This document shows positions 7,435 to 33,939 of a stretch of 35,758 nt of DNA, in pieces. Below the pieces are notes generated by a model, which saw only the letters and a program-made list of their open reading frames with translations, was not told where the DNA came from and made no database searches. The DNA is from an uncultured Lentisphaeria bacterium (GTDB taxonomy: Bacteria > Verrucomicrobiota > Lentisphaeria > Victivallales > UBA1829), in NCBI GenBank assembly GCA_949287225.1, contig CASEFP010000207.1, positions 1 through 35,758 on the forward strand, written 5' to 3'. The translations under genes and the position numbers were made by a program. The first letter of the stretch is position 1, and every line of letters begins with the position of its first letter.

Positions 7435-7438
7435 GGTG

Positions 7439-10878: not shown

Positions 10879-10902
10879 ATCATCTCCCTAAAAAATTTAA
10901 AT

Positions 10903-15497: not shown

Positions 15498-15498
15498 T

Positions 15499-16164: not shown

Positions 16165-16166
16165 TT

Positions 16167-19258: not shown

Positions 19259-20046
19259 GAGCGCACCTCCCGGCAGGAGCCCGACGGCAGGAAAAAGGGC
19301 ACGCCGTCCTCATCAAGCATCACCCGCGCCTCAATATGGAACACCTCGCGCAGGAATGCGGGCGTAAGAATCTCACAGGGAGTGCCGACGCGGAAAATGC
19401 GCCTGTCCCGGATCGCGGCCAGACGGTCCGAACAACGCGCGGCCAGATTCAGATCATGCAGCACCATCACCACGGTGATTCCCAGCTCGCACTTCAGACG
19501 CCGGACCAGCTCGATCACCTCGAACTGGCAGCAGACATCCAGAAAAGTCGTCGGCTCGTCGAGCAGCAGCACCTCCGGCTCCTGCGCAAGCGTCATCGCG
19601 ATCCACGCCCGCTGGCGCTCGCCGCCGGAAAGGTTCGCGATTCTGCGCGAGGCCAGTTCCGTAAGACGCGTCATCGCAAGAATGCGTTCGACCACCTCGC
19701 GGTCATGCACAGAGGGCGCGCGCCAGCTCCCGTGGTGCGGGAATCGCCCGAATTCCACCAGATTCCGCACCGTCACATCTCCGGGCGCGGCGTGAATCTG
19801 CGGAAGCACGGCAAGGCGTTTCGCCAGAAGCGCGGTGTTCATCGTGTGCACATTTTTCCCGTCCAGAAGGACCGTCCCCCCCTGCGGTTTCAGGATGCGC
19901 GCAAGGGTCTTGAGCAGCGTGGATTTCCCGCAGCCGTTCGGACCGATGAACGTCAGAATCTCCCCGGAGGCGATGGAGAGACTCAGCTGATCAATCACGC
20001 GCTTCGATCCGTACCCCGCACACAGTTCCGCAATGTCAAGTTTCAT
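19255..20046 (-). CDS. Corrinoid ABC transporter ATPase (BtuD/FecE family)
   Basis: The 263-residue ATPase powers uptake through the permease encoded just upstream. It has Walker A GPNGCGKST (35-43), the signature LSGGERQR, Walker B VLLLDEPT and the switch histidine in VMVLHDLN. The subfamily is shared by B12, siderophore and haem importers. Its place inside a cobalamin operon behind a cobalamin riboswitch points to corrinoid. It overlaps the permease gene by 11 bases and the CobD-CobQ gene by four. Confidence 0.9.
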   Translation of the reverse strand: MKLDIAELCAGYGSKRVIDQLSLSIASGEILTFIGPNGCGKSTLLKTLARILKPQGGTVLLDGKNVHTMNTALLAKRLAVLPQIHAAPGDVTVRNLVEFGRFPHHGSWRAPSVHDREVVERILAMTRLTELASRRIANLSGGERQRAWIAMTLAQEPEVLLLDEPTTFLDVCCQFEVIELVRRLKCELGITVVMVLHDLNLAARCSDRLAAIRDRRIFRVGTPCEILTPAFLREVFHIEARVMLDEDGVPFFLPSGSCREVRS

Positions 20047-21046
20047 GATCCGCGCTCCGTCTCAGAAGATAAAGGAAAAAGGGCGGCCCCAGCAGAGCGA
20101 GAATGATCCCGGCGGGCAGCTCGACGGGATCCATCATGATCCGCCCGACCGTGTCGCAGCAGACCAGCATCCCCGCGCCGAAAAGCGCCGCGCCCGGCAG
20201 GAGAAAACGGCAGTCGGAACCGATCATCAGACGCACGACGTGCGGCGCGATCAGCCCGACAAAACCGAGTAGTCCGACGACACTCACGGACGCAGCCGCA
20301 AGAAGCGCGCTCAAAGCAAGCAGGATCACGCGCATGAGCTCCACACGGAGCCCGAGCCCGGTCGCCACTTCGTCCCCGAGCGCCAGAATGTTCAGCGACT
20401 GCGCAAGCAGAAAAGATGCCGCCGCGCCGCAGGCGATATACGGCCAGACCAGATGCACCTGCGTCCACGATTTCGCGGAAAGACTCCCGATCATGAAATC
20501 CAGAACCACCACGGCGCGCTCGGAGTTGAACAGCAGCAGCATGCTCACCAGCGCGCTCAGCATGCTTGCGACCGCCACGCCGGAAAGGATCAGCCGCACC
20601 GGCTGGATCCCCCCTTTCCACGCGAGCGCATACACAAGGACAGCGGTCGCCAGCGCCCCCAGAAATGCCGCAGGAACAAGGAGGAACGAGAACTGCGGCA
20701 GAAGAAGCAGAATTCCCACGGCCGTCAGCGCGCCGCCGGAGGATACCCCGATGATCCCCGGCGCGGCAAGCGGATTCCGCATGACACCCTGAAGAATCGC
20801 GCCGGAGAGGGCGAGCGCCGCGCCGACCAGTCCCCCCAGCACCACGCGCGGCAGACGAATGTGACAGAGGATCAGATAATCGGTCGAACCGTCCGCCGCC
20901 CAGAGGGTTTTCAGAATCTCCGCGCAGGAAAGATTCCGCGAACCGCAGCGCATCGAAAAGAGAAAGGCCAGAAAGCAGAAAACGCCCAGCAGGATCAGGA
21001 TTCCGATCCGGAATCCGGTATATTGCCTGAAGTCCGTGCCGTTCAT
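20036..21046 (-). CDS. Corrinoid ABC transporter permease (BtuC/FecCD family)
   Basis: The 336-residue integral membrane protein has about ten hydrophobic segments and the FecCD motifs RLPRVVLGGLVGAALALSG, GVMRNPLAAPGIIGVSSG and GLIAPHVVRLMIGSD, the last containing the coupling helix that contacts the ATPase. The ATG at 21046 is chosen because GAGGATCC lies before it and it overlaps the binding-protein stop as ATGA. A longer reading from 21196 would add fifty unlikely residues. Specificity for corrinoids is inferred from the operon. Confidence 0.9.
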   Translation of the reverse strand: MNGTDFRQYTGFRIGILILLGVFCFLAFLFSMRCGSRNLSCAEILKTLWAADGSTDYLILCHIRLPRVVLGGLVGAALALSGAILQGVMRNPLAAPGIIGVSSGGALTAVGILLLLPQFSFLLVPAAFLGALATAVLVYALAWKGGIQPVRLILSGVAVASMLSALVSMLLLFNSERAVVVLDFMIGSLSAKSWTQVHLVWPYIACGAAASFLLAQSLNILALGDEVATGLGLRVELMRVILLALSALLAAASVSVVGLLGFVGLIAPHVVRLMIGSDCRFLLPGAALFGAGMLVCCDTVGRIMMDPVELPAGIILALLGPPFFLYLLRRSADHET

Positions 21047-21981
21047 TTTTCCGGATCCTCCGTTTTCATTTTCCCGTAAAGACATTCCGCAAGTCTCCGG
21101 AATGCCTCGGGATAGCGCTCTCCGGGCAGATAGAGAAACGTCTCGGCTTCCAGTTCGTAAACGCGCTTGTTTTTCACCGCCTGCAAATTGCGCCATCCGG
21201 GGCGGTTTTCAAGATCGGCGAGCCGGGGAGCGAAGTTTTTTCCCTCCGGTCCGGTGCGGAGAAGAAAAATCACGTCCGGATCCGCGACCATCAGCTGTTC
21301 CATGCTGAATTTCACGCGGACCGGAGAAGCGTCCGGCACGACATTGCGCGCGCCGAGACGCGCCGCCATGTTCGCGGTGTTCCCGCGCGGCGTCTCGGAA
21401 AGGAATCCCTCCCCCGACGCGATCATGCAGATGAAAGAGGGATTCCCGTGAGAAACGGACACGCGGCAGAGCGCATCCACCTCATCCGAGATGCGTTTGC
21501 GCAAGGCGAGCGCCTCGGGGGGATTGCCGTTCAGACGGGCGAAAAAGTCAAGCAGGCTCAGGAAATCGTCATAGTTCGCGTAATCGACGCAGACGCTCTC
21601 CACTCCGGCGGCGCGGAGCAGTTTCTGAATCTCCCAGTGCTTTCCTCTTTTACTGTGAAGAAGCACCAGATCAGGATCGAACGAGAGCAGTTTCTCCATA
21701 TCCGGATTGTAGTAATTTCCGACCTCGGGCAGGCTCCGCGCCGCCTCGGGAAGCACGCGAAGACGCGGCGCATGCGGCCGGGCGACCGCCTTCCCTCCCG
21801 CCGCATACCACATTCCCGTCAGCGAGATGTGCAGCACGACGGCGCGCTTCGGGCGTTTATGAACCGTCACGGTTTCGCCGCTGCGCTGGCGGAACGAAAC
21901 CGTTTCCGCCGTCTCAGAGACAATCTCCGCGGAAAGCAGCAGGGGCAGAAGCCCCAGAAAAATGAGCGCTTTTCCTATCAT
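21043..21981 (-). CDS. Corrinoid ABC transporter substrate-binding protein (BtuF/FecB family)
   Basis: The 312-residue protein begins [19 protein letters not shown], a signal peptide, so it acts in the periplasm. The mature part has the periplasmic-binding-protein type III layout: [30 protein letters not shown], and a C-terminal lobe with [12 protein letters not shown] and VKNKRVYEL. There is no clear lipobox cysteine. The start at 21981 overlaps the prepilin-like gene's stop as ATGA; a GTG at 21996 is the alternative. It should hand corrinoid to the permease encoded downstream. Confidence 0.85.
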
Positions 21982-22925
21982 TCGACAATGCTCCACGGAT
22001 CGTAATACATATTGTTGTCCGGGCCAAAGGTCCCGATCCTGCGCAGGCGCAGAAAGGAGATGCTGCTCTCCTCTTTTTCATTGACGTGCGAGAGATTCTT
22101 TTCCACGGAGACATGACCGTCCGCCCAGACGACATTCGCCGCACCCGCATGGCGGAAATGGATGCCGCAGCCGTTGGTCGCAAGGTCCCCCTTCCCCGAA
22201 CCGAACGGTCCGAGCTGACGGGTGTCCGCCACACTGCTTCCGACGGAATACACCCCGTACATGTCCGGATAGGCGACCGCCTCGCCGAGCGCAAAGGAGA
22301 TCGGGGGACTCGCATAATCGCCGAACACAATCGTCTGCGACGGCTGTTCAATCTGGGAATCCTTCAAGCCGAATCCCCGGTACATGGAACGGGTCCCGCT
22401 CTGGTAATAGAGAGAGGAACCGATATTCACATTGTAGGCATACCCGCCGGAACCGGTCACGGTCAGCTCGTCATCGGTCGAGGTCTTCTGCTCCATAACC
22501 GGGCATTTCAGGGAACGGATTGCGGTAGGAGCAAGATAATCGGCCATATATCCCAGCCTCAGATCCCATTCATAGACGGAATTGCTGCCGTATTTTCCGC
22601 CGGCCTTGTCCCCCTTGCATCCCATCCAGGATTTCCGGGATTTCGTCACGCTCCCGGCTTCATAGACCGGCATATTGCAGTCCCAGTCGCCGGAATAGAA
22701 TTTCCATGCCGTTCCGACCTGCTTCAGGTTCGAGGCGCACTGAATCCCCCTCGCCTTCTCCCGGGCAATCGCGAGCGCGGGCAGAAGCATCCCAGCGAGA
22801 ATCGCGATCATCGCAATCACGACGAGGAGCTCCACAAGGGTGAAATTCCGTTTTTCCGTTTTCCGGAGGATTCGCCCGGCGGGAACATCCGCGGGCCGGA
22901 GGGGGGAGATCGAACGATGCGGCAT
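21978..22925 (-). CDS. Prepilin-type protein with H-X9-DG motif, first gene of the cobalamin operon
   Basis: The 315-residue protein has a type II secretion/type IV pilin N-terminus: a basic leader to about residue 27 (RKTEKRN), then [18 protein letters not shown], with the usual Glu at +5 of the mature form. The helix is followed by [22 protein letters not shown], typical of Lentisphaerota and Planctomycetota families. Near the C-terminus [12 protein letters not shown] is the H-X9-DG motif. AAAGGAAG precedes the ATG at 22925. The mature protein should be anchored in the inner membrane with its globular part outside, or assembled in a pseudopilus. It overlaps the corrinoid binding-protein gene by four bases and lies directly behind the riboswitch, so it is expressed with B12 uptake. 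Its actual role is unknown. Confidence 0.88.
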
Positions 22926-22958
22926 GATTTTCTTCCTTTGTGTTACGCGCACAATTCG

Positions 22959-22986
22959 GGCCGGTATCCGCTTTGCAATACCAGCC
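22959..22986 (-). promoter_or_regulatory. Hairpin between riboswitch core and first start codon
   Basis: On the minus strand GGCTGGTAT and ATACCGGCC pair in a 9-bp stem (one T-G pair) around a 10-base loop, TGCAAAGCGG. It lies eleven bases after the riboswitch core and about 20 bases before the ribosome binding site. Cobalamin riboswitches usually place their expression platform (P13/L13) here. I did not find an obvious loop complementary to L5. Confidence 0.55.
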
Positions 22987-22996
22987 ATAAAAAAAT

Positions 22997-23072
22997 TCGA
23001 CCGCACCAGGACCCGACTATAACGGTTGCGCGACAGCTTCGGACTTCCACCGAATTCACTGCATACGGTCAA
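22997..23072 (-). promoter_or_regulatory. Cobalamin riboswitch, divergent compact form
   Basis: On the minus strand the core reads, in order, AGTGAATTCGGTGGAAGTCC, GAAGCTGTCGCGCAACCGTT and ATAGTCGGGTCCTGGTGC. This follows the RF00174-type core GGGAA, GGTG-AAATCC, CCGCAACTGT and AGTCAGG with clear deviations. TTCGG/CCGAA closes the conserved internal hairpin. The ends TTGACCGTAT (23072-23063) and GTGCGGTCGA (23006-22997) pair over ten positions, closing the element. It lacks the large peripheral arm, recalling the compact cobalamin-II (env8) variants. Six Ts follow the closing stem. It lies directly before a cobalamin transport and synthesis operon, which strongly supports the call. Confidence 0.75.
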
Positions 23073-23140
23073 CACCGGGGATTAATATACATCCGGAAAC
23101 TGTTATTGCAAAGAGCAAAACAGGAAATCCGGAAGGAAAA

Positions 23141-23169
23141 GACGCCTCCTTCCCCGGAAGCGAGACGTC
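23141..23169 (-). terminator. Rho-independent terminator of the Ca2+ ATPase gene
   Basis: On the minus strand GACGTCTCGCTTCC pairs with GGAAGGAGGCGTC, about 13 pairs with one bulged G and almost no loop, and TTTTCC follows. It lies 19 bases after the ATPase stop and just before the riboswitch, separating the two transcription units. Ts also flank it on the other side. Confidence 0.8.
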
Positions 23170-23187
23170 TTTCCGCCATTCACAGAC

Positions 23188-25788
23188 TCAGCGTTTTTCC
23201 GCACGGCAGCCGCGGCACACAAGCTTCCTGACAATGTCGATGGGAATCACGAGGAACGCCAGGAACGCACAGGTCAGCCAGGAGGAGAGAGACAAAGGCT
23301 CCACCTCAAGCACCCGTCCGCCGAACGTGACAAAGAAATACTGCAGGACAATGATCGACAGCATCACAAAAATGAAGTTCCGGTTCCTCCCGATCCCCTC
23401 AAAGGGATTCAGATGCGAGGTTCTCGCATTGAATCCGTTGAATGTGATCGCCATCATGAAAGTGGCAAAAAGCGCCGACTTGAGATAGGTCGTATCCACA
23501 TCGCCGAACAGTTCGCGGACCGGGCGGAGGAACAGGATGGAAAGACAGATGAAGGTGATGTAAAAGGCACCGACCAGAATCTCGATGAACATCTCTCTGC
23601 TCACAATGCTTTCGGAACGCGGAATCGGCTTGTCATTCATATACTCCTTCAGCGCAGGTTCACTGCCGAATGCAATTGCCGCAAGCGTATCCATGGCAAG
23701 ATTGATCAGCAGGAGCTGAATGACGGTCATCACCACATTTTCCCCCAGCATGGGGCCGAGAAAACACGAGAGAACAGCCGCGACATTGACCGTCAGCTGA
23801 AAGATCAGGAATTTGCGGATGCTCTTGAACATCGTTCTCCCGTAAAGAATCGCCTTTTCGATGGAGGAGAAATTGTCGTCGAGAATCGTGATGTCTCCGG
23901 CCTCCTTCGCCACTTCCGTTCCGGAGCCCATGGCGAATCCGACGTCGGCCTTTTTCAGCGCTGGAGAGTCGTTCACGCCGTCGCCGGTCATGCCGACGAC
24001 CAGATTCAGCTCCTGTGCAACGCGCACCAGACGGCTTTTATCGGTCGGCAGAGCACGGGCGACAACACGCAGATCAGGCAGAATTCTTTTCAGCTCCTCA
24101 TCGGATTTCTCCGCCATTTCAGAGGACGTCAGCGCAACATCGGAAGGAACGGAAAGAAGGCCGGACTCCCGGGCAATCGCCACGGCGGTCTCCTTTCTGT
24201 CCCCGGTCACCATGACCACCTGGATTCCGGCATTGCGCACCTCGCGGATCGCATCCACCGCCTCCTTGCGGACATTGTCGCGAATGCTGATCAGACAGAT
24301 CAGCGTCAGTTCGCCCTCGGTGCTCTCCCCTTCGCATTTCGCGACCGCGAGCAGCCGCATGGAGCGGCCCGCCTGCGTATCCAGGTAGGAGATCAGGAAA
24401 TTCTTTTCCGTCAGCGCCTTCTCATGCCCCTCCTCGTCCAGATAGCGCGTGCAGGACTCAATGATCTTCTCCGGCGCCCCCTTGATGTAGGTCAGCGGCC
24501 GTCCGTCACGGACAATGGTCACGCTGGAATTCTTCTTATTCGAATCAAAAGCGTTGAATGCGCGAACCTCTTCCCTGCTTCCGGGATTTTCGATTTGCGA
24601 ATCGCTCAGAAACGCCATCAGAGCGCGATCCGTACTGTTTCCGCCGATGATGGCGCCATTGCTGACGGTAGCGCTGTTGTTGAGCCCGACCCCAGTAATC
24701 ACATCAAGTTTCAGGTTGGGCGGCATGGCGTGCAGCGAATCGAAGCACCGCACATTGCCGGTGGCAAGTTCCACCACGGAAAGACGTCCCTCCGTGATCG
24801 TGCCTGTTTTATCGCTGAAAAGGATGCTGAGACTGCCGGCGGTCTCCAGACCGTTGATCTTCCTCACCAGAACATTGTCCTTTGCCATCTTCAGGCTTTG
24901 AAGCGACAGGAGAATCGAAGTCAGCATGGGCAGCCCCTCGGGAACCGCGCAGACGATGATCGTGACGGCAACGGTGACCGCATTCATGATCAGACGGATC
25001 CACTCATAGATTCCCGTCGGCATATCGCCCGTCAGAAGGGTCTTGGCAAGAATCCCGACGACAATCGCACTCGCTCCGATGTATCCGAAGGTGGAAATCT
25101 GCCCGGCGAGTTTTCCGAGCTTCACCTGAAGCGGAGTCGCGCGCGTATCCTCCTGCACCTCCAGGGCAAGCTCGCCGAAAAGGGTTTTGTCTCCGACGAC
25201 CTTCACCTCCATATAAGCCTCGCCGCCGCAGACCACGGTTCCGCGGTAAGCGTAATGCAGATTCAGCAGATCCTTCGTGTCATAAGCGCTCCCCGGCACT
25301 TTCGAGGCCTCCTCCGTCTCGCCGTTCAGAGCGGCCTGATCGACCTTGACCTTGCCTTCAACGATTTCGCCGTCGGCGGGGATTTTGTCCCCCGCCTGCA
25401 GGAAAACAAGATCACCGACCACAACCTCGCTGACATGGATTTCGGCAAGATGTCCGCCGCGCATGACTTTTGCCGTCTCCTTGGCCTCCTCCTCGGCTTT
25501 CAAAGCGGACGCCTTGCGCTCCTGGCTGCTCTCACTGATCGAGGAAACACCGTTCGCGATCAGAATCGCGATCAGGATTCCGACAGGCTCGAACCACTCC
25601 GCCTGCTTCAGAAAGAAAAGAATCACCTGCACCGCCAGCGCGACGAGCAGGATCATGATCATCGGGTCCTTGAATCCCTCAAGAACCTTTTTCCACAGGG
25701 GATCGGGAGGAATCTGGGTAAGTGTGTTGGCGCCGTGCTTCTTCCGGCTTTCTTCGACTTCAAGGGCGGATAAACCTTGTCTGTTCAT
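23188..25788 (-). CDS. Calcium-transporting P-type ATPase, PMCA type
   Basis: The 866-residue P2-type pump should export Ca2+ from the cytoplasm. VKVDQAALNGETEE (around 147-160) is the actuator loop. PEGLP (283-287) in the fourth membrane segment is the ion site, Asp326 in FSDKTGT is phosphorylated, KGAPE is the nucleotide site and TGDGVNDSPALKKADVG is the hinge. LLINLAMDTLAAIAFGSEP in the sixth segment resembles plasma-membrane Ca2+ pumps (NLIMDT-like) more than SERCA. There are about ten membrane segments. AAGGAAC precedes the ATG. It lies 168 bases downstream of the TerD-AAA+ unit in the same direction; TerD proteins bind Ca2+, which may link them. Confidence 0.92.
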   Translation of the reverse strand: MNRQGLSALEVEESRKKHGANTLTQIPPDPLWKKVLEGFKDPMIMILLVALAVQVILFFLKQAEWFEPVGILIAILIANGVSSISESSQERKASALKAEEEAKETAKVMRGGHLAEIHVSEVVVGDLVFLQAGDKIPADGEIVEGKVKVDQAALNGETEEASKVPGSAYDTKDLLNLHYAYRGTVVCGGEAYMEVKVVGDKTLFGELALEVQEDTRATPLQVKLGKLAGQISTFGYIGASAIVVGILAKTLLTGDMPTGIYEWIRLIMNAVTVAVTIIVCAVPEGLPMLTSILLSLQSLKMAKDNVLVRKINGLETAGSLSILFSDKTGTITEGRLSVVELATGNVRCFDSLHAMPPNLKLDVITGVGLNNSATVSNGAIIGGNSTDRALMAFLSDSQIENPGSREEVRAFNAFDSNKKNSSVTIVRDGRPLTYIKGAPEKIIESCTRYLDEEGHEKALTEKNFLISYLDTQAGRSMRLLAVAKCEGESTEGELTLICLISIRDNVRKEAVDAIREVRNAGIQVVMVTGDRKETAVAIARESGLLSVPSDVALTSSEMAEKSDEELKRILPDLRVVARALPTDKSRLVRVAQELNLVVGMTGDGVNDSPALKKADVGFAMGSGTEVAKEAGDITILDDNFSSIEKAILYGRTMFKSIRKFLIFQLTVNVAAVLSCFLGPMLGENVVMTVIQLLLINLAMDTLAAIAFGSEPALKEYMNDKPIPRSESIVSREMFIEILVGAFYITFICLSILFLRPVRELFGDVDTTYLKSALFATFMMAITFNGFNARTSHLNPFEGIGRNRNFIFVMLSIIVLQYFFVTFGGRVLEVEPLSLSSWLTCAFLAFLVIPIDIVRKLVCRGCRAEKR

Positions 25789-25956
25789 ATTCTGTTCCTT
25801 ATGTTATATGAAAAAATAATTTACAGCGATACGGCCTTCCGGCTGTCATTCCATGCGGAAAAAAGCACAGGAGGCGGATCCGGAAACATTTCCGGAAAGC
25901 AGGAGATCAGAATCCTCATTCCTGCGGGAGGATGTCAAACTGAAATGGGGGGCACC

Positions 25957-26637
25957 TCATCCTTTCTCCTGGCTTGTCCGGGCCGGCACCACAAGACGCC
26001 GATCCAGCACGTCGGGAGGAAGTTTCGACCAGATCTCCAGAATGCTCTGCGCAACCGGATCCGTATTCGCCCTCATCTCCTCGACCAGACGTTTCGTCTG
26101 CTCATATTTTTTCCGCAGAAGCGGCATGTCTTCAGCAATCTGTTTATATTGTTCCTCAAGAGCGGCAAGTTCCGTTTCGCTCCGGCGGCAGAATTCGGTG
26201 TCCGTGCGGATTTTCTCTTTCCGCGCGGCGTTGTCCGAGAGAATCTTTTCCAGACGCGCCGCCTCGGCCTTCTCCTTTTCCGCTCCGCTTTCCTCGTTTG
26301 AAACCTGCGCGCGCAGCGAAGCGATTCTCGCGACGGCGGTGCGCCGGGCCTCCTGGAGCGCGGTCAGTTCGGATTCGAGCGTGCGCTGTTTTTCCTCCCG
26401 GTTTTTCACATCCGCGGCAAGCGCGGTCTCCTGAAGCTTCATCTGCGCAAGCTCCTCGGCGCGCTTCCGGAGAGACGTGATCCGTCCCGCGACGGCATCA
26501 TATTCCGTCTGCAGCTGTTTTTCCTCACTGGTCAGGCTGGAGATTCTGGCGCGTAGCGCGCCGATGCGCTGAATTCTTGTCTGCACCTCATTTTCCAGAT
26601 TCGCCACCTTGTCATCCTTCTGCGGAAATGCTTCCAT
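25957..26637 (-). CDS. Coiled-coil protein, last gene of the TerD-AAA+ unit
   Basis: The 226-residue protein is almost wholly a predicted coiled coil (about 8-185), with heptad-like runs rich in Glu, Lys, Arg, Ala and Leu. A short C-terminal part follows, with ILEIWSKLPPDVLDRRLVVP. There is no signal peptide or membrane segment, so it is cytoplasmic. GGAGGCAGGTGG before the ATG is a strong ribosome binding site, and it follows the triple AAA+ gene by 19 bases. I recognise no family. A role as an adaptor or scaffold for the AAA+ protein is only an inference. Confidence 0.75.
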   Translation of the reverse strand: MEAFPQKDDKVANLENEVQTRIQRIGALRARISSLTSEEKQLQTEYDAVAGRITSLRKRAEELAQMKLQETALAADVKNREEKQRTLESELTALQEARRTAVARIASLRAQVSNEESGAEKEKAEAARLEKILSDNAARKEKIRTDTEFCRRSETELAALEEQYKQIAEDMPLLRKKYEQTKRLVEEMRANTDPVAQSILEIWSKLPPDVLDRRLVVPARTSQEKG

Positions 26638-26656
26638 CCACCTGCCTCCTCACAAA

Positions 26657-29600
26657 TTAATCCTCCGGGATATCTTCGTCGGCAACGGTCAGCCAGTCCT
26701 CATCGGAAGCGGATTCCATCTGATCGACACGAAGACTCTGTTTTTCCATGATCCGTTCAAAAATGCCGCCGACAGTCCGGGCATTGCCGAAATTCGCACC
26801 GGCGGCGGCACGTTCCGCCGCGAAAAGCGCCCGCAGACGGCTGCGGAAATCCTCCGTGGAGGGAAAGCGCAGTGCCTGCGACTCAAATTTCCGGAAAAGA
26901 ATCCGGACACACTCCTCATCCGTATAGTCGGGAAATTCGATCTCCGTTCCGAAACGGCTCAGGAGTCCGGGATTCGCGGTCAGGAACACGTCCATCCGAT
27001 CCTTGTATCCCGCCAGCACGACGATCGTGGTGACGTTCCGCGGATCGGTGATGCAGCCGACAAGCGTGTCGATGGCCTCCCGTCCGAAGGAGTCCTGATT
27101 CCCCGCATGGGGATCGTAGAGGCTGTAAACCTCGTCAATAATCACAACGCAGCCGGCGCTTGTTTCAAAAATCCGGTTCACAACATCTTTTGTCTGCCCG
27201 ACATAGGAGCCTTTCAAATCCACGCCGCGATACTCCTTCACAACCGGATGTTCAATGATTCCAAGGGAACAGAACACGCGGGCCATATACCGGGCAATCG
27301 TTGTCTTTCCCGTCCCGGGATTGCCGACAAAACGCAAGTTGTATTTTCCGGGAAGCAGTCCGGACTCGGCCCGTCCGCTTGCCGCCGCACGGCGTTTTTC
27401 AGCGTAAATACTCTTGGCATAGAGGCGGATCTGGCGTTTCAGCTCCTCCATGCCGACAAACTTTTCCTCCAGCTCCTTCAGAATGTCGTCAATGCTCTCG
27501 TGCCGTGCGGCGTCCTGCCCGGTGAGATCGCAGAGCCTGAAAAGATTCGGATCGGCTCCCGGTTCGGCCAGCAGACGCTCCATCTGATTGCTTTTCACCT
27601 GATCGCGGTAGAAATTCCTGACTGCACCCGCATTGCCGAAATGCCTTGCGGCGGCCATGCGGGAGAGCCGGGCGAGAAGATGGACGTCGAACTGATTTCT
27701 GTCCGCCGGATCCACGCTCATTCCGTCCTTTTCCAGACACTGATAAAAAATCTCCCTGAGCTCCGCTGGTTTGAAATCATCAAACCAGACTTCATGGGGG
27801 AATCTGCGTTTCAGCCCGGGATTGACTTTATAAAGTTCCCGCATGTCTTCCGGATACCCGGCCATGACCACCACCAGGTTCGCATACATCGGATCGGTCA
27901 GGAGCTTGACAATCTGATCGACAATTTTCCGCCCCTGATCGTCCTTCGCAAGCTGATAGGCCTCGTCAATGAAAAGAACGCCGCCGACCGCCTGATCAAA
28001 CACATCCCGGACCTTCTGCGCAAATTCCCCCTGATACTGGGAAGAGAGATCCCCGATCGGGTCGATTTCCACAAGCTTGTTTTTCTCGCTGATGATCCCG
28101 AGCGCATAGAACAGGTTCCCCATTTTCCGCGCGACGCTGGTTTTTCCCGTTCCAGGATTGCCGAGAAAAATACAGTTGTTCATCCCGGAGACAGTTTCGC
28201 CGCGGAGCTCATACCCCCGCTGGCGGTTGAACATGGTATGAAAAAATTCCTTCACGCGCCGGAGGCCGATAAACTCCTGTTCCAGCTCGGAGAGGATCCG
28301 CTGCGCCTCCTCCGGACGGAAGGAAATCGGGTCCGGCAGATCCTCCGGACGGATCTCGGAATCCTCCGCATGGCGCAATGCGCGGAGTCCTTTCATTTTT
28401 TCAAAAAGATTGCGGACGCCCCGCCCGTTTCCAAGTCCGCCCCTCCGGGAATAGGACTCGATGTAGCGCTGCAGTTTTTCCGAGGCCTCAGGCGTCAGGC
28501 GCAGTTTGTTCTCCCGTTCCCCCATCGCCTCGAACATCCGGATCATTTCATTTGGCGAATAATCCGCAAAACGGAGAATCCTGCTGATCCGGGCTTTGAA
28601 TCCCGGATTCACTTTGTAAAGCTCGGGAAGACGCTCTTCGTAACCGGCGAGAATCACGGTGAGATTGTCGCGGTTGTCCTCCATCTCCTTCATCAGGGTT
28701 TCGAGCGCTTTCCTGCCCCACTCGTTCTCGGCGAAAAGGTAAAATTCATCGACAAACAGAACGCCGCCGACCGCCTCCTGGATTTTCCTGCGCATATTTT
28801 CGACGGTCTCGCCCTCATTGTAGGAGCTGATGATGTCGGAATAGGCGATTTCCACGACGTTCTGGGAGGTGCGCAGTTCCAGCGCCCAGAAAATCTGTCC
28901 GATCAGTCTGGCAACCATCGTCTTTCCGGTTCCGGGATTTCCGAGAAACAGCATATGGTAGTTGAGGGAGGCAACTTTCCGCCCCATCCGCCGCTGCTCC
29001 CTGTCATACCGGGCCTCGGCGACGATTTTATCCACCTCGCGCTTCAGCTCCTCAAGTCCGGTCAGACCGTGAATTTCCGCCAGCAGTTCGGCAAGCGTTT
29101 TCGCCTGCGAAGCATCGGCGAAGAGTCCGTCCAGAGAACGTTCCCGCGGGTTGTTCCTGACAAACTCCCGCACCTGTTCGGAAAAATTGTAGAGACTCAT
29201 CTGCCGGGCGTATGCCGTGGCAACGATTTTATCAATCTGCCCGTGAAAACCGTAGCGGCATGCAAAACGCATCAGCATGGCTTCGAGCTCACGCTTGCCG
29301 GGAAGACTCAGCAGAATGTTCCGGGTGAAATTCTCCCGGTCGAGCCGGTGATCCGCAAGCGTGTTGAACTCCTTCAGACGCCCGGGGTTGACCACAAGGA
29401 TCGAAGCGCTTTCCGGATGCCCGGAGGTAATCGTCGACCAGCGCAGAATGGTTTCCAGCTTGCGCAGGTCATTTTCCGAGGGCTGCCCGAGCCACATGTT
29501 TTCCGGATGGAAGAAGACCACAACACTCTTCGTGCCGGACTGGAACAAACGCGTCAGAAGGTCCAGAAAACTCTGTTCGGAATTGTTTCCGGCACTGGCG

Positions 29601-30034
29601 ACCTCCACGGCGGTCTGTGAAGCTCTGGCCTGATTTCCGTCCGCTCCTCCAGACGCAGCCGGGCGCGGGGGAGGATCCGGAGTCTGCGCGACGGCATTTT
29701 CCGGACGCCTGGAGCGCGGGACAAACGTCCGGGCATTTTTCGCCGCCTGTCCGGACGCCTGCGGATCGACGCTTTTTCCGCGCACTACAGCCTGAAAACG
29801 CTGCTCCATTTCCGGCGTCAGGAATTCCGGTTTGCTCAGGGAGCGGATGAAAAGAATGATTTCAAAACCGCGGCTCTTGAGATACTCCCGGAGGGCGGTG
29901 TCGAGCCGTCCCATTCCGAGCGCCATGTTCAGCATGAAATAGTCCTCGATCTCACCGGAAATGACAAACTGCCTTCTTCCGCTTGAAACCTTCAGATTGC
30001 TGAACAGGCGATCGTTCTGAAACTGATTATCCAT
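26657..30034 (-). CDS. Triple AAA+ ATPase (CbbX/SpoVK-like domains) with a unique N-terminal region
   Basis: The 1125-residue protein has three AAA+ modules of the CbbX/SpoVK type. The P-loops GNPGTGKT are at 365-372, 625-632 and 904-911, and the Walker B strands VLFVDE, VLFIDE and VVIIDE are near 425, 686 and 963. Each module also has an NPG(L/F) segment followed by an arginine (ARISR, RRF, SRF). Residues 1-300 are different: a possible dimerising domain, a Pro/Ala-rich linker (about 90-150), and an alpha/beta part with VVVFFHPENMWLG that resembles an AAA fold without a P-loop. Relatives remodel other proteins, as CbbX does with Rubisco. The ATG at 30034 overlaps the preceding gene by eight bases; upstream codons are part of that gene. 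Confidence 0.88.
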   Translation of the reverse strand: MDNQFQNDRLFSNLKVSSGRRQFVISGEIEDYFMLNMALGMGRLDTALREYLKSRGFEIILFIRSLSKPEFLTPEMEQRFQAVVRGKSVDPQASGQAAKNARTFVPRSRRPENAVAQTPDPPPRPAASGGADGNQARASQTAVEVASAGNNSEQSFLDLLTRLFQSGTKSVVVFFHPENMWLGQPSENDLRKLETILRWSTITSGHPESASILVVNPGRLKEFNTLADHRLDRENFTRNILLSLPGKRELEAMLMRFACRYGFHGQIDKIVATAYARQMSLYNFSEQVREFVRNNPRERSLDGLFADASQAKTLAELLAEIHGLTGLEELKREVDKIVAEARYDREQRRMGRKVASLNYHMLFLGNPGTGKTMVARLIGQIFWALELRTSQNVVEIAYSDIISSYNEGETVENMRRKIQEAVGGVLFVDEFYLFAENEWGRKALETLMKEMEDNRDNLTVILAGYEERLPELYKVNPGFKARISRILRFADYSPNEMIRMFEAMGERENKLRLTPEASEKLQRYIESYSRRGGLGNGRGVRNLFEKMKGLRALRHAEDSEIRPEDLPDPISFRPEEAQRILSELEQEFIGLRRVKEFFHTMFNRQRGYELRGETVSGMNNCIFLGNPGTGKTSVARKMGNLFYALGIISEKNKLVEIDPIGDLSSQYQGEFAQKVRDVFDQAVGGVLFIDEAYQLAKDDQGRKIVDQIVKLLTDPMYANLVVVMAGYPEDMRELYKVNPGLKRRFPHEVWFDDFKPAELREIFYQCLEKDGMSVDPADRNQFDVHLLARLSRMAAARHFGNAGAVRNFYRDQVKSNQMERLLAEPGADPNLFRLCDLTGQDAARHESIDDILKELEEKFVGMEELKRQIRLYAKSIYAEKRRAAASGRAESGLLPGKYNLRFVGNPGTGKTTIARYMARVFCSLGIIEHPVVKEYRGVDLKGSYVGQTKDVVNRIFETSAGCVVIIDEVYSLYDPHAGNQDSFGREAIDTLVGCITDPRNVTTIVVLAGYKDRMDVFLTANPGLLSRFGTEIEFPDYTDEECVRILFRKFESQALRFPSTEDFRSRLRALFAAERAAAGANFGNARTVGGIFERIMEKQSLRVDQMESASDEDWLTVADEDIPED

Positions 30035-31547
30035 TCTTCTGACGTTCCCGGGTTTTCTCCTGCGTCCGGACCTGTTCGCGGATTGCCACCTTCGCTTCGG
30101 AGTCGATCCCCGCGGCACGTCCCCAGTCCGTCATGACGAAGTCGATCTCATCGCCGACCCCCTTCTGCAGATCGGAGACAAGCTGATGGCAGGCGGCCTC
30201 CTCGCCTTCGGCGATTCCCTCGACCTCCAGGCGGACCTTGCCGTCAAGATCAATGTTCATGCGCATGTCCCCCCGCACGCCGGGGGCTTTAGCAAAGATC
30301 GTCAGATCGGAAAACTCGACGTCCGCGCCTGCTGCGTTCTGCTGCGCATAATAATAGGTCGGCGAATCATACCCCTGTTCATAAAGCGCGTTCATGATGA
30401 CCTCGGCCAGTTCCATGCGCTGGGCCGCCGCGTTCGACCGTTCTTCGGCGGCCGCGGCAAACTTCCGGATCGCCTCCAGACTGGGTCCAATCAGTGCCTC
30501 GGCTTCGCCGAACTGTTCGGCGGCGATCCGTTCCTCCGCACCGGAAATGGCGTCAAACGCATTGTTCACGGCCTGCTCCTCCGCGGTCCAGCGGATCAGT
30601 TCATTCCGGTCGAGAACGGAAATTTCCTCTCTTGCCGCCTTCAGTGCATTCTGCGCGGAAAGCATTGCTGCATCGAATTCGTTCTGGCGCTGCATGACCT
30701 TCTGCTCCAGAGTCCGGAGACGCGGCAGAAGTCCCGAGCTGATTTCCGCGGCCGCCGCATAATCCTTCCGGTCGAAGGCCCCGCGGAATTCCGCAACGGC
30801 AGGCTGGAGCGCGGCAAGTTCCCCCGGCGCGAATTTTTCGTGACGCAGCCCGTGAATGGAAGCCAGCAACGCGTCTGTTCCGGATTTGCCGGCCATGGCA
30901 TTGCGCTGATTTTCCTCGGCAATCCGTTCCGCTTTCTCCTGTTCAGCAGCCTGCGTCGAGACGCTGTTGAACTTTTCAAGATGCTGACGCCCGAGAACCC
31001 AGGCGGCGTCATAGGCGCTTTTCGCGTTTTTCTTATGATCGAGCGCACGCCGGATGCTTTCCGAAGCGGCCCGTTCCAGACGAAGCGCCTCCTTCGCCTG
31101 CTGCCGCGCCTGCGTTGCCTTCCGATCCTCGATTCTGAGATCCCATCCGAAGCTGGTAGCAAGTCCCCGGGCGGCGGTCTGCGCTGCCGAAACCGCGCCG
31201 CGCAGCAGCTGATCCGCCTGATTGTGAAGGCGGACTGCCTCGCGCCGCAGTTCCGCGGCTTTCTCCTGTTCCCTCCGTGCCAGCTCCATTTTTTCCCGGA
31301 AAACGGCGCGCTGGCGCTCAAGGGCCGAAACCTCCTCGGAGGCGTGTCTGCGTATCGTGTCCGTCAGCGGATTCGCCGCCACTTTCCGCTCGATCTCCTC
31401 CGTTGCACGGATGCCGGCATCCAGATCCACGGCTTCGATTTTACTGAGTCTTTCGGCATTGCGCCGCGCCTGATCCACCTGTTTGCCGATCTCCTCGACA
31501 GCTCGTCTCAGTTTCGGCTGAACGTCGGCAGCCTTGGGTCCGCTCAT
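30027..31547 (-). CDS. Coiled-coil protein with a small C-terminal alpha/beta domain, unknown function
   Basis: The 506-residue protein begins MSGPKAADVQPKLRRAVEEI and is mainly long helical, charged repeats up to about residue 375, so an extended coiled coil is likely. The last 130 residues are different: LTIFAKAPGVRGDMRMNIDLD, split as strands, then GKVRLEVEGIAEGEEAACHQ, recalling small DUF2997-like domains (G-x-V-x-x-E-V-x-G), though the match is weak. There is no signal peptide. GGGGGA precedes the ATG, which overlaps the radical SAM gene as ATGA. The end overlaps the triple AAA+ gene by eight bases, so it is probably made in step with that ATPase and may be its substrate or adaptor. Confidence 0.75.
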   Translation of the reverse strand: MSGPKAADVQPKLRRAVEEIGKQVDQARRNAERLSKIEAVDLDAGIRATEEIERKVAANPLTDTIRRHASEEVSALERQRAVFREKMELARREQEKAAELRREAVRLHNQADQLLRGAVSAAQTAARGLATSFGWDLRIEDRKATQARQQAKEALRLERAASESIRRALDHKKNAKSAYDAAWVLGRQHLEKFNSVSTQAAEQEKAERIAEENQRNAMAGKSGTDALLASIHGLRHEKFAPGELAALQPAVAEFRGAFDRKDYAAAAEISSGLLPRLRTLEQKVMQRQNEFDAAMLSAQNALKAAREEISVLDRNELIRWTAEEQAVNNAFDAISGAEERIAAEQFGEAEALIGPSLEAIRKFAAAAEERSNAAAQRMELAEVIMNALYEQGYDSPTYYYAQQNAAGADVEFSDLTIFAKAPGVRGDMRMNIDLDGKVRLEVEGIAEGEEAACHQLVSDLQKGVGDEIDFVMTDWGRAAGIDSEAKVAIREQVRTQEKTRERQKNG

Positions 31548-32215
31548 GATTTTCCCCCTGTTTCCAAAATATTGTGATTGCTGTTCTCCGCGAGAGCAAG
31601 CGAATAACCGTTTTCCTCCAGACGTTCCGTCAGTTTTTCCAGGAATCCCCTCGGCGGAATGCCGGTCAGCTCCAGACGCAGCGTGCTTGTCAGAGCGACT
31701 TCAATCTCGCGGGAGAAATCATTTTCGGCACTCTCAAACACCGCCCTGAAACCGGGATTGAGAACATGAATCCTCTGATTGGAGGAGCCGCGCCATTTCC
31801 GTCCGTCGTTCAACGCATGAACGTAAGGACCGTCGATCAGGATGTCGATGCACTCCAGAATCCGCCGGAAAAGCTCATTCGAGCGAAGCTTTTCTATGGT
31901 TCCGCCGGTATAGCAGAGCACCGACAGATTCCGGGGATCGCGCCGGACTTTTTCCAGAAAGGCCAGAAACGTTTCCGGAGGCTGCTCAAAAGGCTCTCCT
32001 CCGGAAATGGTGATTCCGTCAGTTTCCTTACACTCCGCAACCCATCCGTAAAGCTCGTCCGCGGAATAAAACGCCTCCGGGGGAGCAAGATTCATCTCCC
32101 TTGCAATACAGTGCGGACAATGCCGGGAACAGCCATGTGTCCAGATCACAGCCCGGCGGCCGGGGCCGAGAACCTTCGAACAGCGGTTCAGTCTGGCGAT
32201 TGAGAGAGGACGCAT
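31544..32215 (-). CDS. NrdG-like radical SAM 4Fe-4S protein without a neighbouring reductase
   Basis: The 223-residue protein has the radical SAM cluster motif C-x3-C-x2-C (Cys29, Cys33, Cys36 in GCSRHCPHC), then ITISGGEPFEQ (68-78) for SAM binding and DGPY...WRGSSNQRIH (128-150), the hallmark of activases such as NrdG and PflA. Such enzymes normally install a glycyl radical on a partner. No nrdD or pflB is in the window, so the target is probably different or encoded elsewhere. The ATG at 32215 lies one base after the terD stop. The frame extends upstream within terD but is not protein-like there. Confidence 0.85.
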   Translation of the reverse strand: MRPLSIARLNRCSKVLGPGRRAVIWTHGCSRHCPHCIAREMNLAPPEAFYSADELYGWVAECKETDGITISGGEPFEQPPETFLAFLEKVRRDPRNLSVLCYTGGTIEKLRSNELFRRILECIDILIDGPYVHALNDGRKWRGSSNQRIHVLNPGFRAVFESAENDFSREIEVALTSTLRLELTGIPPRGFLEKLTERLEENGYSLALAENSNHNILETGGKS

Positions 32216-32216
32216 G

Positions 32217-32771
32217 TCAGCAGTATTTGTTGACAATCCCCTGCAATCCTTCCTTGTGACCGATTCCGGTCGCCTCGAACTTCCACTCGCCCTTGTGCAG
32301 ATAAAGGCGGCCGAATTCGATGCCGGTTTCGATGGAGAAATCCTCGCAGAGTTCATATTTGCACAACTCTTCCCCGGTATCGGTATTGCAGATCCGGATG
32401 TAGGAGTTCTGCACCTGCCCGAAATTCTGGCGGCGGGCTTCCGCATAGTAAATCGAAGCGGTGAAGATAATCGAAGTAATCTGCGGGGACACCTTTGTCA
32501 AATCAACGAGGATCTGTTCGTCGTCACCATCCTCGGAATTTCCACCGGTGCGGTCGTCTCCGGTGGAAGTCAGAGCGCCGTCCGCAGAGGTAAGATTGTT
32601 GTAATAGACCATGAAATTGTCGGCGGGAATTTTTTTATCATCGTTGAGCATCAGCGCCGATGCGTCCAGATCGAACGCTTCCCCGTTCTCCGCCGGATCC
32701 CAGCCGAGACCGACGGTAAGATGTTTCAGACCTAAAGCAACCCGCTGTCCTTTCTGAAGATTAATCGCCAT
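32217..32771 (-). CDS. TerD-domain protein
   Basis: TerD proteins are calcium-binding stress proteins first known from tellurite resistance. The 184-residue protein opens MAINLQKGQRVAL, then GLGWDP, FDLDASALMLNDDKKI and the acidic stretch DDRTGGNSEDGDDEQILVDL, where Ca2+ ligands sit in the family. ASIYYAEARRQNFGQV and the C-terminal ATGIGHKEGLQGIVNKYC complete the fold. AAAGGAG lies before the ATG at 32771. It is the first gene of the unit ending at 25957. No TerB, TerC or TerZ gene is in the window, so this is not a standard ter operon. Confidence 0.92.
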   Translation of the reverse strand: MAINLQKGQRVALGLKHLTVGLGWDPAENGEAFDLDASALMLNDDKKIPADNFMVYYNNLTSADGALTSTGDDRTGGNSEDGDDEQILVDLTKVSPQITSIIFTASIYYAEARRQNFGQVQNSYIRICNTDTGEELCKYELCEDFSIETGIEFGRLYLHKGEWKFEATGIGHKEGLQGIVNKYC

Positions 32772-32934
32772 TTCTCCACTCCTTTGTTTCATCTATGTGT
32801 CAGCGTCACAGAACACCAGCCTCGAACATGCCGAAGGACCGGTCATCCCGCTGGACAACATGTGGATTGCCATGCCCTCATGCAGACAGAACGAAAGTTC
32901 GAGCGAGGGAGAGCCCACTCCCTCTGAAATGCTT

Positions 32935-32962
32935 AACATACACGATGCAACCAGGAAAACAA
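32935..32962 (-). promoter_or_regulatory. Candidate promoter of the TerD-AAA+ unit
   Basis: On the minus strand TTGTTT and TATGTT are 16 bases apart, a moderate sigma70-type pair, about 165 bases before the terD start. The leader between contains a 7-bp hairpin, GAGGGAG/CTCCCTC (32905-32924). I see no gene in 32772-33083; a 77-codon plus-strand frame there lacks support. Confidence 0.35.
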
Positions 32963-33089
32963 GCTGAAAAAATACTTCTTCCGGATTTTTTATCTGACAG
33001 AAAGCTCGATTCAGGGAAAAAACGATGAAAAACGTGTTTCCGAATCCGAACCCCTTATGGCAAATCTCCGGTCAGCAGTGCAGAAAAAA

Positions 33090-33115
33090 GCCGTTCAGTC
33101 GGGAAACTGAACGGC
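33090..33115 (-). terminator. Rho-independent terminator after nagB
   Basis: On the minus strand GCCGTTCAGT and ACTGAACGGC form a perfect 10-bp stem around TTCCCG, followed directly by TTTTTT (33089-33084). It lies 26 bases beyond the nagB stop and clearly ends the uxaC-nagB transcript. Confidence 0.93.
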
Positions 33116-33141
33116 TTCTGCAAAAGAATCTGAAAAAACAA

Positions 33142-33939
33142 TCAGATATTGCGATAGGCATCCCACTTCGGATCATTCGCAAACGCGGATCTGTAATAAT
33201 CCTTGAGCGTGAGTTTCGCGGCGGCTTCCTCGTCGACAATCACGGTGCAGTCCGGATGGAGCTGGATCGCGGAACCGGAAACCATCGAGGTCATCGGTCC
33301 TTCGATCGCCTTGGCGATGATGTCGGCTTTGCGCGTGCCGGTGACGAGCATCAGCAGGCTCTTCGCGTCAAGCACGGTTCCGACGCCCATCGTCAGCGCG
33401 CGGGTCGGCATTTTCTCGCCCTTGGCGGGATCGAAATAGGGACCGTTCTGCGCCATCGTGACCGGTGTCAGGTTGACCGCGCGGGTCCGGGAGGAGAAGC
33501 TGGAGGTCGGCTCATTGAATCCGATGTGGCCGGAAAGCCCGATGCCGAGAAGCTGGAGGTCGACGCCGCCTGCTTCTTCCATGAGGCGCTCATACTCGGC
33601 GCACTCGAATTCAAGATCCTCGGCCATGCCGTCCTCGAGATGCGTATTGCGCTTGTCGATGTTGATCCGGTCGAAGAGATGATAGTTCATATAGTAGCGG
33701 TAGGAGTTTCTGTCCTCGGCGGGAAGACCGACATACTCATCGAGATTGAAGGTCTTGCAGAGAGAGAAGTCCAGTTCGCCCTTCTTGTTCATTTCGGCGA
33801 GCTTGTGGTAGAGGTTCTCCATCGTGGCGCCGGTCGCGAGACCAAGTGTCAGGTTGGGTTTCTGACGCAGAGCGTCGGCGATGATCGCGGCGGCAAGCTG
33901 TTCGGCTTTTTCCGCCGTCGGCATGATGATGACTTCCAT
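33142..33939 (-). CDS. nagB: Glucosamine-6-phosphate deaminase NagB
   Basis: NagB converts glucosamine-6-phosphate to fructose-6-phosphate and ammonia. The 265-residue protein has LGLATGATM (32-40), Asp67 in FNLDEYVGL, and GLSGHIGFNEP (134-144) with His138 and Glu143, matching Asp72, His143 and Glu148 of the E. coli enzyme. The position of E. coli Asp141 is Ser136 here. GTRKADIIAKAIEGP and the C-terminal QLHPDCTVIVDEEAAA are family blocks. AGGAGA precedes the ATG. It follows uxaC by 24 bases in one transcript. Confidence 0.94.
   Translation of the reverse strand: MEVIIMPTAEKAEQLAAAIIADALRQKPNLTLGLATGATMENLYHKLAEMNKKGELDFSLCKTFNLDEYVGLPAEDRNSYRYYMNYHLFDRINIDKRNTHLEDGMAEDLEFECAEYERLMEEAGGVDLQLLGIGLSGHIGFNEPTSSFSSRTRAVNLTPVTMAQNGPYFDPAKGEKMPTRALTMGVGTVLDAKSLLMLVTGTRKADIIAKAIEGPMTSMVSGSAIQLHPDCTVIVDEEAAAKLTLKDYYRSAFANDPKWDAYRNI

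Follow-up and report, generated by a model that had tools for sequence, protein, structure and literature searches.

A strain-specific six-gene segment of a Lentisphaeria genome that joins TerD and a Ca2+-ATPase to a radical SAM enzyme, coiled-coil proteins and a three-module AAA+ protein

Introduction

FtsH ternary conflict systems combine a standalone radical S-adenosylmethionine (SAM) enzyme and helical partners with an AAA+ protein that, in a subset, carries an extra N-terminal domain, as set out in passages of Kaur et al. 2020 (PMC7159879). A cyanobacterial duf2997-ycf35 cluster is described in part of PMC4284462, and the gut huge phages known as Jug phages carry terD and Ca2+ P-type ATPase genes according to passages of PMC12363816. 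Here we describe a cassette that resembles each of these in part. It lies on a 35,758-nt stretch of DNA from an uncultured Lentisphaeria bacterium (contig CASEFP010000207.1), which is called the window throughout and whose positions are used as coordinates. The cassette consists of terD, a radical SAM enzyme gene (rSAM), two genes for coiled-coil proteins (cc1 and cc2), an AAA+ gene and a Ca2+-ATPase gene. We tentatively read it as a calcium-linked machine for stress or phage response, in which the enzyme would likely modify the end of cc1 and the AAA+ protein is predicted to remodel cc1.

To our knowledge, the cellular role of TerD is still unclear. The gene set was not found described, under this or another name, in the literature searched, a scope that leaves out most subscription papers and the main Ter review (Anantharaman 2012).

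Results

The segment and its genes

The six genes lie on the minus strand in the order terD-rSAM-cc1-AAA+-cc2-Ca2+-ATPase (Table 1). An initial annotation, made from the sequence alone, had reported five co-directional and nearly contiguous genes, and all of its numbers were right, the length of the AAA+ protein included: terD and rSAM are 1 base apart, rSAM and cc1 overlap by 4 bases, cc1 and the AAA+ gene overlap by 8 bases, and 19 bases separate the latter from cc2. Its assignments of TerD, radical SAM and a three-module AAA+ protein agree with Pfam, and neither coiled-coil protein has a Pfam match that reaches the cut-off. The unit it proposed is real and has six genes, since the Ca2+-ATPase gene, set off from cc2 by 168 bp, belongs to the same strain-specific segment; the N-terminal domain of the AAA+ protein had also escaped it. 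The overlaps suggest translational coupling at most, and nothing computed supports the fixed stoichiometry that had been read from them. The list of open reading frames (ORFs) held frames of at least 80 aa only, and long ORFs on the opposite strand were treated as shadows.

Table 1. Position, strand and basis of the features of the cassette
Feature	Position	Strand	Basis
Strain-specific segment	23075..33083		six non-overlapping genes
terD, 184 aa, ATG at 32771	32217..32771	-	Pfam TerD 4.1e-66
Radical SAM enzyme (rSAM), 223 aa, CX3CX2C	31544..32215	-	Fer4_12/radical SAM Pfam 6e-29
cc1, MSGPK coiled-coil protein, 506 aa	30027..31547	-	DUF2997-like C-terminal domain
cc1 C-terminal alpha/beta domain, residues 373-475	30123..30431	-	AlphaFold2 secondary structure; Cys453, Thr-Asp-Trp-Gly 473-476
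AAA+ protein, 1125 aa, N-domain and three CbbX/SpoVK-type ATPase modules	26657..30034	-	see text
AAA+ N-terminal domain, residues 15-300	29135..29992	-	strict HMM search of loci
cc2, second coiled-coil protein, 226 aa, IWxxLPxD end motif	25957..26637	-	relative in L006
PMCA-type Ca2+-translocating P-type ATPase, 866 aa	23188..25788	-	TIGR01517 618 bits vs cut-off 507

Three genomes of the same genus (G001, G002 and G003; completeness 95-96%) were used for comparison. The right flank (uxaC-nagB) shares 84-90% DNA identity with all three, with homology starting at 33084 in G001 and G003 and at 33071 in G002. The left flank (cobalamin and FecCD genes; window 14000-23000) is 88% identical in G001 and G003 and 72% identical in G002, and homology ends at 23074, 23074 and 23073, respectively. 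In a DNA search with 23100-33060, G003 gave no match at all, while G001 and G002 gave only ~110-bp pieces that lie within the ATPase gene, and neither TerD nor cc1 was found in any of the three. Because the flanks are kept in these genomes while the segment DNA, TerD and cc1 are missing from them, we regard the segment as strain-specific, the absences being limited by the degree of completeness. In these relatives the cassette genes are thus absent rather than scattered singly. Both flanks lie on separate contigs in each genome, not near contig ends, so the site is also a point of rearrangement and a simple insertion is not proved. Lateral movement is the best reading of how the cassette arrived.

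Mobile-element ends were considered as borders of the segment and rejected, as terminal direct repeats are lacking (no direct match of at least 10 bases between 22801-23250 and 32851-33250; one 11-base inverted match) and Pfam finds no integrase among the six proteins. A scan gave no sigma-70-like promoter upstream of terD or upstream of the ATPase gene. By eye, a Shine-Dalgarno-like AAGGAG precedes terD, and a hairpin with a T-run follows nagB (33116-33084), the latter being absent from the scan's list.

The radical SAM enzyme and its AAA+ partners

The description of the enzyme as an NrdG-like activase holds loosely. The NrdG model scores it at 94.5 bits, below the cut-off of 126.1, and the protein is ~70 aa longer than this 154-position model. 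The source genome has its NrdD elsewhere (C90:8677-10374), with an adjoining Fer4_12 activase gene of its own (C90:7628-7933). From the sub-cut-off score and this separate pair we conclude, on sequence grounds, that the enzyme is not NrdG, displaced or otherwise. Its profile, A1, retains Cys29, Cys33 and Cys36 as well as the C-terminal 'TGIP..GF' region, and a second Fe-S domain (SPASM) does not show among its Pfam matches. Among solved structures, relatives were found only in the pyruvate formate-lyase activating enzymes (E 2e-10). None of 900 matching phage records covers 80% of the enzyme, and ribonucleotide reductase activator is the annotation of several of the 20 listed.

Neighbourhoods were compared across 87 loci (L numbers): the best 80 from a genome scan with A1 (more exist), the window, L167 from the same family, and five plasmid loci picked from 55 plasmid records. 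We divided them at 140 bits, a value set after the scores were known, into 46 loci above and 41 below, and counted neighbours within 9 kb on the same strand. An AAA+ gene of any kind accompanies 37 of the 46 above-cut loci, compared with 3 of the 41 below. The motors are of SpoVK type (11/46 vs 0/41), ClpB type with AAA_2 (19/46 vs 2/41) or FtsH-like (7/46 vs 1/41), and kinases show a similar skew (13/46 vs 2/41). The enzyme therefore belongs to a clade that is paired with AAA+ partners. Among the three below-cut loci with AAA+, L043 and L045 carry the same N-domain AAA+ protein and L035 has DUF2997 nearby; the control set is consequently slightly contaminated, in the direction that runs against our claim. 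Fisher values assume independence, whereas L031 and L039 are near-identical and further loci are related, and since loci end at contig ends, absences are soft.

The AAA+ protein of the window contains three AAA plus AAA_lid_6 modules in Pfam, with a CbbX/SpoVK family module present, and its bpMoxR cross-match stays below the cut-off (19.2 vs 27 bits; best 25 of 44 Pfam rows, a limit that applies to all Pfam negatives for this protein). The ~280 residues ahead of the first ATPase module form a separate region in the structure model. A hidden Markov model (HMM) of this N-domain was built from 12 close homologues and run against a protein set trimmed to end 70 aa ahead of any Walker A motif lying beyond residue 120. 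It found 13 ORFs in round 1, before iteration, and converged on 36 ORFs in 36 of the 87 loci, drawing in none of the other ORFs among 7362. A Walker A motif lies downstream in 35 of them, the last being a 132-aa contig-end piece, and 34 of the 36 loci are above the cut. The domain thus sits on differing motors (CbbX-type, ClpB-type and FtsH-like), and it occurs in nine phyla: Verrucomicrobiota/Lentisphaerota, Planctomycetota, Bacillota, Bacteroidota, Cyanobacteriota, Pseudomonadota, Actinomycetota, Campylobacterota and Acidobacteriota. Many of the ClpB-type matches span only its first ~80 residues, and the AAA+ proteins near DUF2997 in L046, L076 and L219 fall outside the set.

The strand-helix order of the model had suggested that the N-domain may be a degenerate AAA module. 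This reading is not adopted here but may yet hold: profile scores with the three AAA modules were 15-24, and shuffles of the first module (20 in all) reached up to 19. Sequence matches to the N-domain in the PDB were weak and unrelated (E at least 0.18). In a search for an E. coli counterpart, the 8 listed of 1466 records are clpB or another Clp ATPase gene, and 80% query coverage was reached nowhere.

The coiled-coil proteins

The AlphaFold2 model of cc1 (mean predicted local distance difference test, pLDDT, 88.4; predicted template modelling score, pTM, 0.55) shows a helical rod and a small C-terminal alpha/beta domain. The tail is mostly below pLDDT 50, and Arg500 and Arg502 within it are near-invariant in a 16-row alignment. 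Close relatives are rare: a search of 5.8 billion proteins, with 7998 candidates scored, yielded a family of 27 including the window's own, and 3 of 387 genomes of the phylum, again counting the window's, contain a member. Of the 26 non-self matches, 8 have a longest contig equal in length to that of an rSAM or AAA+ match, a circumstantial sign of linkage. No match was found in plasmids or in one viral-contig scan.

The protein cc1 begins with MSGPK, and such starts recur near many of these enzymes. We counted MSG and MSGP motifs within the first 90 residues of proteins that continue for at least 150 aa, on the strand of the enzyme and at most 6 kb from it. An MSGP start occurs near the enzyme in 14 of the 46 above-cut loci and in none of the 41 below, and an MSG start in 26/46 vs 1/41. 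In an opposite-strand control at any distance, MSG was found in 7 above-cut loci, the window included, and in no below-cut locus.

The end of cc1 points to DUF2997. A profile of the cc1 C-domain finds two free DUF2997 proteins (L046, E 0.0012; L076, E 0.014). In the other direction, a search with DUF2997 recovers the cc1 of the window (E 0.0073) and otherwise only free DUF2997-like ORFs. Aligned with hhalign, the two score 26.2 (probability 61%), with a maximum of 12.4 in 21 controls. Of 32 rows, 31 have Cys at position 453 and all have Trp475 and Gly476; the Cys of DUF2997 is conserved in 24 of 24. At the level of profiles, the end of cc1 is related to DUF2997 and shares with it a conserved Gly/Cys pattern. 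Taken as a set, the C-domains of 11 chosen MSGP proteins from ClpB-type loci match that of cc1 as well (35.1, probability 70%; up to 16.5 in 20 shuffles), but its two subsets match weakly when used alone (16.6 and 23.3).

The position of the invariant Gly raises the question of whether cc1 is a new glycyl-radical protein and the enzyme its activase, with the radical on the Gly of Thr-Asp-Trp-Gly, ~30 residues from the C-terminus. Glycyl-radical enzymes likewise have their Gly near the C-terminus, and the conservation of Trp475 and Gly476 and the solved activase relatives speak for such a pair. However, a RVxGY-type motif was not seen by eye, no Trp-Gly was visible at the equivalent position of MSGP proteins from ClpB-type loci or in the listed DUF2997 rows, and the cc1 model is a rod with one small domain. 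We therefore regard a glycyl-radical role as decidedly improbable.

Radical SAM enzymes often mature peptides, and the cassette might modify a precursor destined for export, to serve as a toxin or a signal. A peptide substrate has indeed been proposed for the radical SAM enzyme of FtsH ternary systems in the passages of Kaur et al. 2020 (PMC7159879) drawn on here. Yet exporter and peptidase families are missing from the listed Pfam rows of the six proteins, cc1 is a coiled-coil protein of 506 aa, and the enzyme lacks a SPASM domain in its Pfam matches. The 80-aa limit of the ORF list leaves room for a short precursor peptide, and peptide maturation seems to us very improbable.

Free DUF2997 genes also lie near members of the enzyme clade, at L046 12120-12323, L051 9792-9998, L076 9786-9992 and L219 7791-8000, and another at L035 9711-9896, where the enzyme scores just below the cut. 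In L076, L219 and L051 DUF1257 stands beside DUF2997 and rSAM as well. Hosts of these tiny DUF2997 loci include Spirochaetales, Desulfobacterales, Anaerolineaceae and a Paenibacillus plasmid (L219). They are perhaps a minimal form of the system.

The second coiled-coil protein, cc2, has a relative in L006 (E 1e-8). A C-terminal motif like its own is found in L004 9344-9952 and, by eye, in L006 4782-5288.

TerD and the Ca2+-ATPase

The TerD protein matches the solved TerD structures 2kxt/2kxv (6.7e-48) and is the single TerD found in the whole source genome. The Ca2+-ATPase is 80% identical to that of L012 (Bacteroidales) and 79% to that of L019 (Lachnospiraceae), both of which stand beside TerD-rSAM, and 32% identical to a same-genus paralogue; the three ATPases are mutually 79-88% identical. 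HAD-type matches in the ATPase represent its own P-domain.

Within 9 kb and on the same strand, TerD was counted in 5/46 above-cut loci vs 0/41 below, and a sixth (L006) was recognised by Pfam only; P-type ATPases were counted in 4/46 vs 2/41. A Ca2+-type ATPase is present in 4 of the 5 TerD loci and in 0 of the 41 others of the clade (4/6 vs 0/40 if L006 is included). The rSAM tree places the window with L167, L004, L006 and L005 (support 99/97), and the TerD loci L008, L012, L016 and L019 form, together with L014, one separate branch (support 100/99). Since TerD loci thus occupy two separate branches, TerD most simply joined the core at least twice. Gene order differs by rotation, L019 having ATPase-TerD-rSAM-...-AAA+ where the window has TerD-rSAM-cc1-AAA+-cc2-ATPase.

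TerD and the Ca2+-ATPase could nevertheless be passengers of a self-sufficient core of enzyme, MSGP protein and AAA+ motor, with no part in its work. Most core loci have neither gene, the ATPase gene of the window begins beyond the 168-bp gap, and related ATPases exist without a cassette. Against this stand the presence of both genes in two separate branches with differing gene orders and the single base between terD and rSAM, so that we think it improbable that they merely travel along.

A phage origin of the ATPase was also considered and rejected: two viral-contig scans with the ATPase of the window found no relative, and the best hit among phage records is a 4.5-kb fecal fragment (71.6%). 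With terD and a Ca2+-ATPase carried by Jug phages, a contest between phage and host over Ca2+ is conceivable, although the viral scans gave no direct sequence link.

Related loci

Related sets recur in other phyla, as the initial annotation had asked to be checked. In L006 (Planctomycetaceae) a single run holds rSAM and AAA+ together with an MSG-type coiled-coil protein, a relative of cc2 and a TerD-coiled-coil protein, and L019 (Lachnospiraceae) has the Ca2+-ATPase, three TerD proteins, rSAM, coiled-coil proteins and a three-module AAA+ protein. After the Planctomycetaceae cassette stands a double-GTPase gene (L006 6286-7467; DO-GTPase1-like, 1.8e-8). The cassette of the same-family genome (L167 2531-4249) includes a vWA protein as well as a coiled-coil protein with an end that is FHA-like by eye; TerD was not seen there.

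Some other members lie on plasmids. In L220, on a Rhizobium plasmid, rSAM and a ClpB-type N-domain AAA+ gene adjoin the gene of a 2086-aa protein (8662-14922) with Ser/Thr kinase, DUF4011, helicase and REase MTES_1575 domains, which matches the PADLOC model PDC-S37 at 9e-139. Near L221, on a Moellerella plasmid, are a PIN-domain protein, ArdA and an integrase, and L217 (Aristaeella plasmid) has kinase, FHA and protein-phosphatase genes. These neighbours point to conflict functions for some sister loci, and by extension a role in conflict or defence may be supposed for the cassette of the window.

A rival explanation is that the cassette, being of the general Ter type, serves against metal or Ca2+/envelope stress, in which case the AAA+ protein and the enzyme would repair or recycle a damaged cellular protein and phages would not be involved. 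Rings of the CbbX type are known to work in protein repair, the parts that have been added are TerD and the Ca2+-ATPase, and no nuclease or toxin family appears in the listed Pfam rows of the six proteins. A stress function of this kind sits less well with a cassette that is rare, patchy and strain-specific, or with sisters as conflict-like as the kinase-helicase-nuclease of L220 and the locus beside integrase and ArdA. On balance we find this explanation unlikely, though of real weight.

Two observations elsewhere in the window may be recorded. Close to where a DUF1559/prepilin-like gene begins, a stretch of 60-160 bp (22708-22858) has dozens of copies in the genus among the matches listed, a sign of a very large paralogous family. 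The cobalamin genes at 6367-19258 include apparent fusions of TP_methylase with CbiG (11405-13666) and of an aminotransferase with a CobB/CbiA-type domain (16691-19258).

Discussion

The initial annotation had envisaged, as one reading, a remodelling machine acting on a radical-modified or Ca2+-responsive client. This is partly supported, and one candidate client, cc1, can now be named. In the calcium-linked machine that we tentatively favour, the enzyme would act on the DUF2997-like end of cc1, which may serve as substrate or as docking partner, and the first candidate sites would be Cys453 or the invariant Trp-Gly near the C-terminus. The N-domain of the AAA+ protein may recognise cc1, and the CbbX-type ring could then pull on its tail, which is conserved and poorly structured, much as CbbX threads the C-terminus of RbcL. 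The machine would be switched by the Ca2+ state, which TerD and the Ca2+-ATPase would set or report, and the trigger would be a stress, possibly phage infection.

Several results weigh against this reading. The last 83 aa of cc1 score 14.1 bits with Pfam DUF2997 (PF11211), below the cut-off of 24.1, and the 20 DUF2997 matches in the phylum, spread over 17 of 387 genomes, have no radical SAM enzyme of this kind within ~1.5 kb, so that DUF2997 does not need the enzyme and the link between them is not obligatory. The enrichment of TerD alone is modest (6/46 vs 0/41, Fisher 0.027), and L167, within the rSAM branch of the window, has a vWA gene in place of TerD. As to the ATPase, its gene may be transcribed alone across the 168-bp gap, P-type ATPases lie near 2 of the 41 lower-scoring loci too, and the one counted in L008, a fragment at a contig end, shares only 35-39% identity with the other three. 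Relatives at 74-78% identity in G007, G009 and G016, of the same family, had no TerD, rSAM or AAA+ relative in the 12-20 kb examined, so the ATPase can exist without the cassette. Moreover, the six proteins lack a nuclease or toxin family in their listed Pfam rows, and against PADLOC-DB 2.0.0 the five proteins compared (all except the Ca2+-ATPase) gave generic AAA matches (IetA, 3e-21, was best; TRIP13, 4e-19) and weak coiled-coil ones.

A broader reading goes further, and we hold it to be rather unlikely as a whole. The cassette would then be one Ca2+-gated member of a large, unnamed class of bacterial conflict systems, each comprising a radical SAM enzyme, an MSGP adaptor with a radical-installed chemical switch in its DUF2997-like end and an N-domain AAA+ reader, with engines and sensors freely swapped between phyla. 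The engine would be of CbbX, ClpB or another type, and the sensor TerD with a Ca2+ pump, vWA, FHA, kinase/phosphatase or Hsp70.

If the proposed machine exists, radical chemistry on a protein would signal to an AAA+ remodeller or license it. Several orphan families, namely DUF2997, the MSGP coiled-coil proteins, the AAA+ N-domain and the long NrdG-like enzymes (annotated '4Fe-4S single cluster domain-containing protein'), would then belong to a single machine, and TerD would gain defined partners plus a Ca2+ pump.

How does the cassette compare with described systems? Like NrdG and the pyruvate formate-lyase activating enzymes, its enzyme has a single CX3CX2C radical SAM domain, but it differs from them in its longer C-terminus, its NrdG score and the separate NrdD and activase of the genome. 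CbbX/SpoVK proteins have a single module, whereas the AAA+ protein of the window has three modules per chain behind an N-domain and is partnered with rSAM and coiled-coil proteins. With the Ter-dependent stress systems described in part of PMC7824862, the cassette shares a TerD strongly similar to solved TerD. TerC, TerB, TerF, TelA and PRTase were not seen in the Pfam rows of the six proteins, so that the absence of ter partners noted initially stands for TerB and TerC within the cassette, the rest of the genome not having been searched for them. The DUF2997-DUF1257-AAA operons (the cyanobacterial cluster, in the passages of PMC4284462, and Paenibacillus plasmid L219) are alike in that the rSAM clade can adjoin DUF2997 and that the end of cc1 is DUF2997-related; they have a free DUF2997 of 67-69 aa, whereas that of the window is the end of a 506-aa protein and no DUF1257 occurs among the six. 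Jug phages carry terD and Ca2+ P-type ATPase genes as the cassette does, but 'radical SAM' does not occur in the main text of PMC12363816 and the viral scans gave no relative of the ATPase.

The FtsH ternary systems offer the fullest parallel in parts: an AAA+ motor with an N-domain, a standalone radical SAM gene and helical partners are present in the window, and its relative L167 adds a vWA gene. Their motor, in the account given in passages of PMC7159879, consists of one dead and one active FtsH module, whereas that of the window has three CbbX-type modules; neither MoxR nor vWA was seen among its six cassette genes, and that text mentions neither DUF2997 nor 'coiled coil'. Compared with these systems, TerD and the Ca2+-ATPase are the additions that the window makes.

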